64,000 nucleotides of DNA from Halosimplex halophilum (GTDB taxonomy: Archaea > Halobacteriota > Halobacteria > Halobacteriales > Haloarculaceae). The position numbers were made by a program, and so were the translations under genes. Below are positions 7,574 to 55,471 of the stretch, piece by piece (the first letter of the stretch is position 1; each line of letters begins with the position of its first letter). Under the pieces are notes generated by a model. That model did not search any database and was not told the DNA's origin. It saw only the letters and a program-made list of their open reading frames with translations. The stretch is taken from contig NZ_SRHV01000006.1 of the NCBI RefSeq assembly GCF_004698125.1, forward strand, positions 1 through 64,000, given 5' to 3'.

Positions 7574-8095
7574 ATGCACGTCCACAGGTTCGAGCGGATC
7601 TGGCTCGTCGCCGCGCTCGGGATGATCGTCCTGTTCGTCGGGACGGTCACGTACGGCGCCGTCGTCGCCGGGTACGGCATGGTCGACGCCGAGGGCGGAC
7701 AGGTCGACGCGACGGACCCGACGGACGGCGAGAACTTCCGCGAGCCGGGGGTCTACAACGGGAGCGAGCCCGGGCACTACGACGTGTACGTCGAGACGCG
7801 CCGGTTCGCGTTCGTCCCCGGGACGGCCGAGCCCATCCGCGTCCCCGCCGGCAGCACCGTGACGTTCCACGTCGTCAGCGTCGACGTGCTCCACGGCTTC
7901 GAGGTCGCCGGCACGAACATCAACACGATGGCGATCCCCGGCCAGAAGGCCGTCGTCACCGCCGAGTTCGACGAGGCCCGCGAGTACGGCATCGTCTGTA
8001 ACGAGTACTGCGGCGAGGGCCACCACACGATGGCGGGGTCGCTCGAAGTGGTCCCGCCCGGCGAGTTCAACGCGACCGCGGAGGTGAGCGCGTAG
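7574..8095 (+). CDS. coxB: Cytochrome c oxidase subunit II (CuA subunit)
   Basis: 173 residues: one N-terminal membrane anchor (IWLVAALGMIVLFVGTVTYGA) and a cupredoxin domain outside the cell. The CuA site is complete: a His in VDVLHGFEV, then CNEYCGEGHHTM, giving the Cys-x3-Cys-x3-His-x2-Met ligands. The single-helix anchor and short length match ba3-type subunit II. It accepts electrons, probably from a halocyanin-type copper protein, and passes them to subunit I. Its stop is followed at once by the CoxA ATG. Confidence 0.95.
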   Translation: MHVHRFERIWLVAALGMIVLFVGTVTYGAVVAGYGMVDAEGGQVDATDPTDGENFREPGVYNGSEPGHYDVYVETRRFAFVPGTAEPIRVPAGSTVTFHVVSVDVLHGFEVAGTNINTMAIPGQKAVVTAEFDEAREYGIVCNEYCGEGHHTMAGSLEVVPPGEFNATAEVSA

Positions 8096-9880
8096 ATGGC
8101 CCACGCACACGACGAGCGGGCGACCGGGACCGCCGAGGGGCGCGAACTGGCCGCCGGCGAGCGCCTCGCGTTCGTCGACCAGTACCCTGCGGCCGCCCGT
8201 GTCACCCGTCTCTGTTTCGGCGTCTCGTTCACCGCACTGCTGATCGGGGCGGTACTGGGCATCGTCCAGGCGCTTCACCGGACGAACGTCTTCCGCGGCG
8301 TCATCAGTTCGAGCGACTACTACTCCGTGCTGACCGGCCACGGCGTCCTGCTCGCGCTGTTTTTCACGATATTCTTCCTCTCGGGGGCGTTCACCTGGGG
8401 GACGAGCCGCAGCCTCGGCCGGGACCTCCCGAACCCGCGGTTCTCGCTGGCCTGGTTCGGTCTCCAGCTCGGCGGCGCCGCCGCCGTCGCGGCGGCCATC
8501 TTCGGCGGCTTCGTCGGGCAGATCCCCTTCGAGGCTGACGTGCTCTACACCTTCTACGCGCCGCTGCAGGCCCATCCGCTGTTCTACGCCGGCCTCGCGG
8601 CGTGGCTGGTCGGCACCTGGCTCGCCGGCGCCGACTGGATCCGCTCGTATCTGCGCTGGCGGAGCGACAACCGCGGCGAGCGCGTGCCGCTGCAGACGTT
8701 CATGGTCCTGACGACGATGCTGATGTGGTACATCTCGACGGTCGGCGTCGCCGTCGAGGTGCTCGTCTTCCTGCTGCCGCTGTCGATGGGGCTCATCGAG
8801 AGCGTCGACCCGCTGTTGACCCGGACGCTGTTCTGGTACTTCGGCCACCCGGTCGTCTACTTCTGGCTGATGCCCGCGTACTTCGCGTGGTACACTATCC
8901 TGCCGAAACTCGCCGGCGGCCGGCTGTTCAGCGACCCGCTGGCCAGGGTCGTCTTCGTCCTCTTCCTGATCCTCTCGACGCCCGTGGGCTTCCACCACCA
9001 GTACGCCGACCCCGGGGTCGCGGAGGGCTTCAAGTTCGTCGCGATGACGAACACGATGTTCCTCCTGTTGCCGAGCTTCCTCACCGCTTTCACCGTCGTC
9101 GCCAGCATGGAGTACGGCGCCCGCCGGCGCGGCGGGAGCGGCTACTTCGGGTGGATGAAGGCGCTGCCGTGGGCCAACCCCGCCTTCGCCGGCATGGCGC
9201 TGGCCGGGCTGATGTTCGCGGCCGGCGGGTTCTCCGGCATCGTCAACGCCGGAATGAACATCAACTCGCTGGTCCACAACACCCTCTGGGTGCCGGGCCA
9301 CTTCCACCTCACCGTCGGCACGGCCAGCGCGCTGACGATGATGGCGCTCAGCTACTGGCTGTACCCGCAGGTCACCGGCAAGCGCCTCCAGCTCTACGGG
9401 GTCGCGCAGGTCCAGCCGTACGTCTGGTTCATCGGGATGGCGCTGATGTCCAACGCGATGCACCGGGCCGGCCTGGCGGGCGTCCCCCGGCGGACCGCCG
9501 AACCCCAGTACGACCAGGTCTCCTTCGAGGCGGCGCTCGGGTCGATCCCGGAGATGCGCCTCCAGATCGCCGTCGGCGGGGCGCTGCTGACGCTGGGCGC
9601 GGCGCTGTTCGCCGCGGTGATGCTGGCGACGTGGTTCGCCGACCGCGGCCGCGGGCGCCTCCGCGTCGACAGCCACCTCCCGGAACCGATCTCCGGCCCC
9701 GAGGACGCCCCGCGGGTGCTCGACAACTTCAGGCTGTGGGCGGCCATCGCCGTCGTCCTCGTCGCCATCGCCTACGGCTTCCCGATATTCTCGATGGTCG
9801 CCGACGGGCCGTTCGACCCCGCCGCGCCGCCCGTCCCGGTCGGCGTCGTCGACGCGGCGCTCGGGGTCTTCCTCGGCTGA
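8096..9880 (+). CDS. coxA: Cytochrome c oxidase subunit I, ba3 type
   Basis: 594 residues with 12 or more membrane helices. Heme and copper ligands are visible: TGHGVLLALFF (low-spin heme His), GHPVVYFW (CuB His; the Pro-Val-Val-Tyr form is typical of B-family ba3 oxidases), HHQYADPG (two CuB His) and PGHFHLTVG (heme ligands). The enzyme reduces O2 to water and pumps protons. There is no gap after coxB. The absence of subunit III in the cluster also fits the B family. Confidence 0.96.
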   Translation: MAHAHDERATGTAEGRELAAGERLAFVDQYPAAARVTRLCFGVSFTALLIGAVLGIVQALHRTNVFRGVISSSDYYSVLTGHGVLLALFFTIFFLSGAFTWGTSRSLGRDLPNPRFSLAWFGLQLGGAAAVAAAIFGGFVGQIPFEADVLYTFYAPLQAHPLFYAGLAAWLVGTWLAGADWIRSYLRWRSDNRGERVPLQTFMVLTTMLMWYISTVGVAVEVLVFLLPLSMGLIESVDPLLTRTLFWYFGHPVVYFWLMPAYFAWYTILPKLAGGRLFSDPLARVVFVLFLILSTPVGFHHQYADPGVAEGFKFVAMTNTMFLLLPSFLTAFTVVASMEYGARRRGGSGYFGWMKALPWANPAFAGMALAGLMFAAGGFSGIVNAGMNINSLVHNTLWVPGHFHLTVGTASALTMMALSYWLYPQVTGKRLQLYGVAQVQPYVWFIGMALMSNAMHRAGLAGVPRRTAEPQYDQVSFEAALGSIPEMRLQIAVGGALLTLGAALFAAVMLATWFADRGRGRLRVDSHLPEPISGPEDAPRVLDNFRLWAAIAVVLVAIAYGFPIFSMVADGPFDPAAPPVPVGVVDAALGVFLG

Positions 9881-50904: not shown

Positions 50905-51243
50905 TCAGTCCTCCGTCCAGTACATCAGGGCCTCCTTCTCGGTGCCGCAGCCGGGACAGCGGTCGGGCAGCCCCTCGTCGATCTCGCCCATCTCGCCGCA
51001 GACGGTGCAGCGCCACATCAGCTCCGCCTCGCCGAACGAGTGGCCCGAGCGGGCGTGCTCGACGCTGAGCCCCTCGACGCCCTCGCGGGTGGTGACGAAG
51101 ACCCCGCCCTCCTCCATCCCGCGGACGTTCCCGACGGGCTGGCCCCCCTTGTCGTAGAGGGTCTGTCCGAACGACAGCGAGGTGGCTTCCTCGGTCGCTT
51201 CGGCGTCCGATTCTTCCGTCGGTGTCTCTCCTCGTCCGCTCAT
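50905..51243 (-). CDS. DUF7130-like rubredoxin-type protein
   Basis: 112 residues. An N-terminal small beta domain (SFGQTLYDKGGQPVGNVRGME...HSFGEAELMWRC) leads to a rubredoxin-like knuckle pair CTVCGEM...DRCPGCGTEKEALMYW (CxxC twice). The DUF7130 family of haloarchaea has this order. It should bind Fe or Zn, perhaps as an electron carrier or sensor. Single gene. Confidence 0.85.
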   Translation of the reverse strand: MSGRGETPTEESDAEATEEATSLSFGQTLYDKGGQPVGNVRGMEEGGVFVTTREGVEGLSVEHARSGHSFGEAELMWRCTVCGEMGEIDEGLPDRCPGCGTEKEALMYWTED

Positions 51244-51320
51244 ACGTCCCGTTGGAGTCCCGCGTGGATAACTCTGTTTGCGGGCCACTCACGTCGCCCG
51301 CGACCGCCGCCGGATCGCGG

Positions 51321-52800: not shown

Positions 52801-53463
52801 TTACTGGGAGTTCGGCGAGGGCTGGCCGGTCATCGCGCCCGTCGAGATCCCGGACGCCTGCTCGTACTGCTCGTGCGTGCCGGGCGCCCCCTGGAGGTGC
52901 GCCTCGAGGAACCACAGCGACTTCGACACGTCGCGGGACACCTCGTTGAGCAGGTCCGCGGTGTCGAGGTCGCCCCCCTCGTCGGCCATCCGGATCTGCT
53001 CGGCGAGGTTGGCGTCGAGCGTCGCCATCCGGTCGGCCAGCGCGGCGACCAGCGCGATCCCGTCGTAGGTGTCCCGCGGGAACGGCTGGACGGCCGTCGC
53101 CTGTGCGACCTCGTGGACCGTGCCCGGCGGCCGGCCGCCCAGCGCGCTGACGCGCTCGGCCACCGCGTCGATGTGGGGATCGAACGTCTCGATCAGCTCC
53201 TCGAACAGCTCGTGGAGCTGGTAGAACTCGTGGCCCTTGACCGTCCAGTGGGCCGTCTTGAGCTGCATGTTGATCGCCGTCAGGTCCGCGAGACACTGGG
53301 TGAGCGCGCTGATGCTCGTCGTCCGGACGGCCTCGGGGAGGTAGTTCCGCGTCGGGAACACCTGTCCCACGGGGCCGGCGGCCGCCGACTGGCCGCCGGC
53401 GGGTGTCTGCCCGGAACTGCTGCCGGACTGGCCTGACTGCTGGTGCTGGATATTCTGGCTCAT
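52801..53463 (-). CDS. dps: Dps-family ferritin-like DNA-protection protein
   Basis: 220 residues. A Gln/Ser/Gly-rich N-terminal arm (1-30) precedes a Dps four-helix bundle with the dinuclear iron ligands HWTVKGHEFYQLHELFEELIETFDPHID. Haloarchaeal DpsA stores iron and shields DNA from H2O2. The end (TGAMTGQPSPNSQ) is a polar tail. ATG 53463 fits the family; MPM would be two codons longer. Confidence 0.92.
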   Translation of the reverse strand: MSQNIQHQQSGQSGSSSGQTPAGGQSAAAGPVGQVFPTRNYLPEAVRTTSISALTQCLADLTAINMQLKTAHWTVKGHEFYQLHELFEELIETFDPHIDAVAERVSALGGRPPGTVHEVAQATAVQPFPRDTYDGIALVAALADRMATLDANLAEQIRMADEGGDLDTADLLNEVSRDVSKSLWFLEAHLQGAPGTHEQYEQASGISTGAMTGQPSPNSQ

Positions 53464-53665
53464 AGGCACTCGCCCGCTACGTAACGACCTGTCATCAACA
53501 TTGACGGTGGGTGTGCAAGCCCCGAGCGCCGCGCGAGCGGCGGGGTACCGCGATCACCTACCGCGGTCACCACGGTTCCGGCTCCGACATCCCTGAGTCG
53601 TCCGTTCTACGCCGACCCTCGGGCTCGGCCGTGGCCCTAAGTGGCCGCCGCCCCACCGTCGAGAC

Positions 53666-54916: not shown

Positions 54917-55471
54917 GTGTCCGAGCTCGACTTCGAGGCGACGTTCGCCGCGGAACTCGACGTGGTGCCCGACGAGCACCGCGACGACGAGCGGTTCGTC
55001 CCCGCTGCGGGCCCGCTCGACGCCGAGATCGCCTTCGTCGGCGAGGCGCCCGGCGCCACGGAGGTCGCGGAGGGCGAACCCTTCGTCGGCCGCGCCGGGA
55101 GCCGGCTGGACGGCCTGCTGGAGACGGTCGGGATCGACCGCGAGACCGTCTACGTGACCAACCTCGTGAAGGTCCGGCCGCCGGAGAACCGCGACCCGAC
55201 GGCCGACGAGCGCCGCGTCTGGAAGCCGCTGCTGGACGCGGAACTGACCAAGGTCGACCCGGCTGTCGTCGTGACGCTCGGGGCCGTCGCCAGCGGGGCG
55301 GTCCTCGACACCGACGAGGCCGTCGGAGACCTGCGCGACGAGACCTACGAGGTCGACGGCCGGCTGGTCCTGCCGACGTACCACCCCGCGGCGACGTTCT
55401 ACGACGACGGTATCGAGCCGATGCTCGAACGCGACCTCCGTGTGGCGAAGGACATCGCCGACGGCGAGTGA
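54917..55471 (+). CDS. Family-4-like uracil-DNA glycosylase lacking all cysteines
   Basis: 184 residues from a GTG. Motif 1 GEAPGATEVAEGEPFVGRAG, motif KVRPPENRDPT, and the final HPAA (TYHPAATF) place it in the UDG family-4 fold that removes uracil from DNA. Normal family-4 enzymes bind a 4Fe-4S cluster through four cysteines, two of them in VKCRPP and a later C; here these are Val and Trp (VKVRPP, RRVWKPL) and the whole protein has no Cys. It must do without the cluster or be inactive. Single gene. Confidence 0.88.
   Translation: MSELDFEATFAAELDVVPDEHRDDERFVPAAGPLDAEIAFVGEAPGATEVAEGEPFVGRAGSRLDGLLETVGIDRETVYVTNLVKVRPPENRDPTADERRVWKPLLDAELTKVDPAVVVTLGAVASGAVLDTDEAVGDLRDETYEVDGRLVLPTYHPAATFYDDGIEPMLERDLRVAKDIADGE

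Follow-up and report, generated by a model that had tools for sequence, protein, structure and literature searches.

Uracil in DNA is deaminated cytosine. The closest described relatives of the protein analyzed here are the family-4 uracil-DNA glycosylases (UDGs) of T. thermophilus (UDGa; 1ui0), T. maritima (1vk2), and Sulfolobus tokodaii (4zbx), which hold four cysteines for a [4Fe-4S] cluster. The family-4 motif is given as GE(A/G)PG in PMC10359453, and PMC5387724 describes the uracil pocket of T. thermophilus UDGa as E41, G42, E47, F54, N80, and H155, with N89 proposed to position the water and H155 proposed as the leaving-group residue. The purpose of the cluster is debated, with anchoring of a loop, stability, and DNA-mediated redox sensing under discussion. 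It has been described as a stabilizer of the enzyme and of a loop, and replacement of Cys by Ser in the enzymes of P. furiosus and A. fulgidus is reported to cost about 40% of dU-removal activity (PMC5295032). Given that such mutants lose only this fraction, the premise of the initial annotation that fold stability in family-4 enzymes requires the cluster was too strong. The A. fulgidus cluster is also reported to show redox activity on DNA (PMC9266487), a function closed to any enzyme that lacks the cluster.

In the literature titles and abstract openings searched, we found no description of a cluster-free family-4 UDG. Clusterless MutY homologues were reportedly the subject of a 2016 study by Trasvina-Arenas, to judge by its title. 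MutY is another kind of DNA glycosylase, likewise with some members lacking the [4Fe-4S] cluster, and has an unrelated helix-hairpin-helix fold (PMC11078426).

The window, a 64,000-nucleotide stretch of the Halosimplex halophilum genome, contains an open reading frame on the plus strand that begins with GTG at position 54917 and whose stop codon ends at 55471. It encodes 184 amino acids with no cysteine, and its GC content at third codon positions is 0.95. The features considered below are as follows.

54917 to 55471, plus strand: putative cluster-free family-4-like UDG, 184 amino acids, GTG start (open reading frame, profiles, AlphaFold2 model, and solved folds)
54956 to 54967, plus strand: codons L14 to V17, at the alignment columns of the first and second cluster cysteines (CxxC)
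55040 to 55054, plus strand: motif GEAPG, residues 42 to 46, aligned by phmmer with GEGPG of T. thermophilus UDGa
55160 to 55162, plus strand: N82, aligned with uracil-binding N80 of T. thermophilus UDGa
55172 to 55174, plus strand: V86, the place of the third cluster cysteine by alignment columns
55187 to 55189, plus strand: N91, aligned with water-positioning N89 of T. thermophilus UDGa
55220 to 55222, plus strand: W102, the place of the fourth cluster cysteine by alignment columns
55382 to 55393, plus strand: motif HPAA, H156 to A159, with H156 aligned with catalytic H155 of T. thermophilus UDGa

The protein matches the Pfam UDG profile at 99 bits (cutoff, 24.3) and the family-4 model TIGR00758 of NCBIfam at 145.7 bits, above the curated cutoff of 125.3. 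The type-4 equivalog model NF040953 does not separate it from L001, a four-cysteine paralog in the same genome, because both fall below the cutoff of 250 (140.8 and 166.8 bits, respectively). Among solved structures, the closest sequence relatives by phmmer are the UDGs of S. tokodaii, T. thermophilus, and T. maritima. An AlphaFold2 model computed from a 25-row alignment has a mean pLDDT of 89.2 and a pTM of 0.88, and its top matches among solved folds are the family-4 UDGs 1vk2, 1ui0, and 1l9g (Z = 24.4 to 24.7 in the first four rows, over 180 to 183 residues); Foldseek likewise returned family-4 UDGs as the best solved matches. In the same fold comparison, 2d3y, presumably the family-5 enzyme (UDGb) of T. 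thermophilus, reached a Z of 18.8 versus 23.5 to 24.7 for family-4 rows. Confidence scores from structure prediction are often high for Fe-S proteins even when the cofactor is left out; thus, the high pLDDT does not imply a stable cofactor-free fold.

The window protein shares with the described family-4 enzymes the fold, the GE(A/G)PG and HPxA motifs, the uracil pocket, and a TIGR00758 score above the cutoff, and differs from them in holding none of the four cluster cysteines. From its sequence, it most likely works like a family-4 UDG, as predicted from the residues discussed below, and descends from family 4. We file it as a cluster-free variant rather than an ordinary member, as the cluster that marks the family would have no cysteine ligands here. 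The initial annotation had proposed a family-4-type UDG without Fe-S cysteines, and this description is borne out by the TIGR00758 score above cutoff, the absence of cysteine, and the existence of a conserved clade. On the basis of the computed homology, fold, retained active site, loss of four ligands, clade, purifying selection, and coexisting Fe-S copy, we favor, with a probability of roughly 0.7, a working cofactor-free UDG derived from an Fe-S family-4 ancestor, in which a hydrophobic plug would take the place of the cluster and which would serve as an accessory backup copy; its activity is predicted.

UdgX belongs to the same superfamily and has the same fold as the window protein, and UdgX folds align to the window model at a Z of about 23. 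An enzyme that crosslinks to DNA as UdgX does is nevertheless the least probable of the readings weighed, and we rejected it: the match to TIGR03914 (UdgX), at 100.7 bits, lies far under the cutoff of 189.95, and the window protein has GEAPG as motif A and no KRRIH, whereas UdgX is marked by GEQPG (Q in motif A) and a KRRIH loop (PMC10359453).

Alignment to 1ui0 by phmmer pairs E43, A44, E49, F56, N82, N91, and H156 of the window protein with E41, G42, E47, F54, N80, N89, and H155, respectively. E43, E49, N82, and H156 are identical in all 26 haloarchaeal and all 15 nanohaloarchaeal cluster-free rows, while F56 is kept in 25/26 (one gap) and 15/15, respectively, and N91 is invariant in all rows of the 25-row alignment. 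The motifs first noted, GEAPGA, VGRAG, and HPAA, are confirmed: GEAPG, which falls within the family-4 consensus, and HPAA are present, and VGRAG forms part of EGEPFVGRAG. As in family-4 enzymes, which act on uracil in both single- and double-stranded DNA, uracil would be flipped out of the DNA and its glycosidic bond cut; N82, E43, E49, and F56 would line the uracil pocket, H156 would stabilize the leaving uracil, and N91 would position the water. Four haloarchaeal copies (L028, L030, L031, and L032) have a Ser/Glu-rich insert of roughly 20 to 30 residues N-terminal to the HPAA motif.

At the four columns that hold the [4Fe-4S] cysteines of Fe-S relatives, the window protein has L14, V17, V86, and W102. 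Cysteine occupies these columns in 60, 60, 58, and 60 of 60 other archaeal and bacterial rows. In the haloarchaeal rows of the clade, the four places hold L (26/26), V (24) or I (2), V (23) or I, G, or A (one each), and W (26/26); in the nanohaloarchaeal rows they hold F (13) or L (2), L (11), V (3), or I (1), I (12) or V (3), and W (15/15). All four ligand positions are thus lost in 26/26 haloarchaeal and 15/15 nanohaloarchaeal aligned rows, as well as in the four plasmid copies read (L287 to L290), which have L, V, V, and W and no cysteine. Within the matched stretch of the 27 other haloarchaeal copies, 18 have no cysteine and 9 have one or two away from the ligand places. The initial statement that no cysteine is present anywhere therefore holds for the window protein and not for every relative; the clade-wide trait is loss of the four ligand positions rather than total absence of cysteine.

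In family-4 enzymes the [4Fe-4S] cluster links the N-terminal region with the loop and helix that follow the strand at residues 78 to 82. Here, a hydrophobic plug of L14, V17, V86, and W102 may replace it, a packing suggested by the alignment columns. A metal or cluster still bound at this site through noncysteine ligands would be compatible with the sequence taken by itself, but apart from the single G and A in the third column the four places hold L, F, V, I, and W, residues with side chains that do not usually coordinate metals, and we regard such a site as very improbable.

The careful tree comprised 72 rows, from which the N-terminal region and the remaining two cysteine columns had been removed. 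In it, the haloarchaeal and nanohaloarchaeal cluster-free rows form one clade (99/89), with the haloarchaeal Fe-S rows as its sister group (97/87), and the haloarchaeal cluster-free rows group together at 92/98. The sister clade includes L001, which is 48% identical to the window protein and possesses both the cysteines and a C-terminal QxxLxxF-like tail that the window protein lacks. A single nanohaloarchaeal clade is compatible with the data (P = 0.529) without being required by them, so any transfer between the Nanohaloarchaeota and the haloarchaea could have gone either way.

Within the searches run, the cluster-free clade was found solely in haloarchaea and Nanohaloarchaeota. Among the matches listed, at least 28 of 292 Halobacteria genomes, including that of the window, carry a member, defined as a match of at least 141 bits that falls in the group. 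Matches after the clade members score 140.3 bits or less, and 23 such copies that were aligned bear cysteines (22 in all four columns; the aligned row of L001 is incomplete at the ligand columns, and its full protein has the cysteines). Two other genomes of the same genus gave one match each, of ordinary strength. In a scan of named genomes, the best 80 loci further included Halosimplex salinum (78% identity), a Haloarculaceae archaeon, Haladaptatus, several Natrialbaceae, and three Nanohaloarchaeota. Eight haloarchaeal plasmid records hold a relative with 53 to 57% identity, annotated as uracil-DNA glycosylase in all three records that list a gene. In the nanohaloarchaeal phylum (that of L043), 19/28 genomes have a UDG match, which is cluster free in 15/28; of the other four matches, two have four cysteines, one with an incomplete row has two, and L136 has one.

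Five PF03167 (UDG-superfamily) matches occur in the window genome, so the proposition that it has no second UDG is wrong. One of them, L001 (C2:191696-192130), is a family-4 UDG of the ordinary four-cysteine kind, and the second, cluster-containing enzyme that the initial annotation had suggested looking for is thus present. The 25 haloarchaeal carrier genomes searched have five or six superfamily matches each, and the second strong match is a four-cysteine UDG in 25/25 (L001, L137 to L139, and L291 to L311). For comparison, four Udg proteins are listed for Haloferax volcanii (PMC7776575). Two additional superfamily proteins, both divergent, are encoded in the window genome (L004:1405-2064 and L005:1441-2370); the latter product, of 309 amino acids, has a weak Pfam UDG match (24.8 bits; cutoff, 24.3). 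These data bear on the earlier suggestion of a salt-adapted loss of the cluster: the restriction of the clade to halophiles in our searches agrees with it, but it is weakened because the Fe-S UDG is kept in the same cytoplasm in all 25 carriers, and Saccharibacteria share the loss.

The coexisting Fe-S enzyme also raises the prospect that the cluster-free protein kept the fold for another job, such as sensing uracil in DNA or excising other damaged bases, while the paralog repairs uracil. In every one of the 25 haloarchaeal carriers checked, it is present in addition to the Fe-S enzyme, and its partners may differ, since none of the 26 haloarchaeal cluster-free rows has the QxxLxxF-like tail, which resembles a PCNA-binding box, versus 22/23 haloarchaeal Fe-S rows and 11/15 nanohaloarchaeal rows. 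However, in the 15 nanohaloarchaeal carriers the cluster-free UDG is the sole match of the search per genome (genomes may be incomplete). Together with retention of the uracil-pocket and catalytic residues of T. thermophilus UDGa, this makes another job unlikely, and those residues leave the wholly new role once proposed unsupported.

If the protein is an active glycosylase, the cluster is unnecessary for uracil search or excision as such. Natural cluster-free relatives with a full active site, in cells that also have the cluster form, make the role of the cluster testable without artificial mutants, and a salt-stable, oxygen-insensitive UDG could serve laboratory use.

For seven pairs, dN/dS was 0.285, 0.379, 0.176, 0.114, 0.184, 0.164, and 0.219, a range (0.11 to 0.38) that points to a functional protein under purifying selection. 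A duplicate in decay, with its cysteines gone for want of selection, would fit the patchy spread among haloarchaeal genomes and the internal stop in one copy (L025/L045, Natribaculum breve), which indicates that the gene is dispensable at least in that species. The dN/dS values, the retention of W102 in 41/41 clade rows, and the standing of the cluster-free form as sole match in 15 nanohaloarchaeal genomes argue against decay; a pseudogene is disfavored on the dN/dS values, and we consider decay even less probable than a noncysteine metal site.

UDGs without the full set of cluster ligands also occur outside the halophiles. In the class of one Saccharibacteria genome (that of L070), a UDG4-like match was found in 103/147 genomes, and in the best 30 of these 103 loci (L157 to L186) the third cluster cysteine is replaced by Y in all 30. 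Among 15 aligned Saccharibacteria-type rows, from the class and the named-genome scan, the fourth cysteine is replaced by F in 15/15, and the second cysteine of the first pair is retained in 11/15. These rows are placed with bacterial rows in the 72-row tree, and loss of the cluster in Saccharibacteria seems to have been independent of that in the halophile group. A single origin of all cluster-free forms was rejected by the careful tree (p-AU = 0.0147); a quick 113-row tree allowed it (P = 0.367), in a search that had missed better trees. On viral contigs, 18 of 79 aligned UDG4-like open reading frames lack the third and fourth cysteines (e.g., L207, L211, L222, L227, and L237), several of these 18 being divergent, with insertions and loosely aligned columns; viral sequences were absent from the tree.

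The capacity to build clusters was assessed by SufBD (PF01458). It exceeded the cutoff in none of the 30 genomes of Saccharibacteria loci L157 to L186, with a match below it in G469, and was present in 1/6 genomes with a Saccharibacteria-type UDG (that of L099); two of these six are also among the 30, and L058 does not bear the Saccharibacteria name. This check of cluster assembly covered SufBD alone, and many of the assemblies are incomplete. SufBD is present in the window genome (G000), in three other haloarchaeal genomes, and in 14/15 nanohaloarchaeal carriers of the cluster-free UDG. Loss through inability to build clusters is therefore rejected for the halophiles and fits Saccharibacteria in part. 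SufBD was not found in G308, G310, G304, and G306, nanohaloarchaeal-phylum genomes whose UDG lies outside the cluster-free clade; these four lack a match while 14/15 carriers have one, an oddity that runs counter to a simple account.

As a second copy beside the Fe-S enzyme, the cluster-free UDG would presumably be useful when clusters are oxidized or iron is scarce. This backup role draws on gene neighbors in a minority of loci. In the window, two neighbors provide context.

50905 to 51288, minus strand: DUF7130 protein with a rubredoxin-like segment (Pfam PF23458, 136.7 bits)
52801 to 53469, minus strand: Dps-type ferritin (Pfam PF00210, 82.7 bits)

The remaining neighbors are a HalOD1 domain, a luciferase-like monooxygenase, DUF5789, a CBS-domain protein, a BAT/HTH_10 regulator, DUF4112, and two small proteins without a Pfam match. 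Across 31 carrier loci, we found no fixed gene partner. PCNA lies close to the cluster-free gene in 8/31, all of which appear to be Natrialbaceae by genus name or group code f3. DUF7130 relatives are in the adjacent region in L036, L037, and L205 (31% identity). A Dps or DUF892 gene lies within about 6 kb in 5/31 loci (L036, L037, L039, L040, and L041), in the window, and in 1/3 annotated plasmid loci, counts that divergent ferritins could escape. In the 4.47-Mb window genome, PF00210 is matched four times and PF05974 once, so such neighbors should be uncommon by chance, although the loci are related to one another and inspection of the window preceded the choice of queries.

A broader scenario, which we put forward tentatively and think doubtful as a whole, holds that the cluster was lost several times: once in a common lineage of Nanohaloarchaeota and haloarchaea, perhaps with the gene crossing between symbiont and host; once in Saccharibacteria, mostly without SufBD; and in some phage lineages. 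Bulky hydrophobic or aromatic residues would fill the third and fourth places, and the haloarchaeal form would act as an oxidation-proof backup, at times beside Dps or ferritin-like stress genes. In Natrialba asiatica, two DUF892 ferritin-like genes (L039:4563-5072 and 7773-8303) flank the cluster-free UDG.
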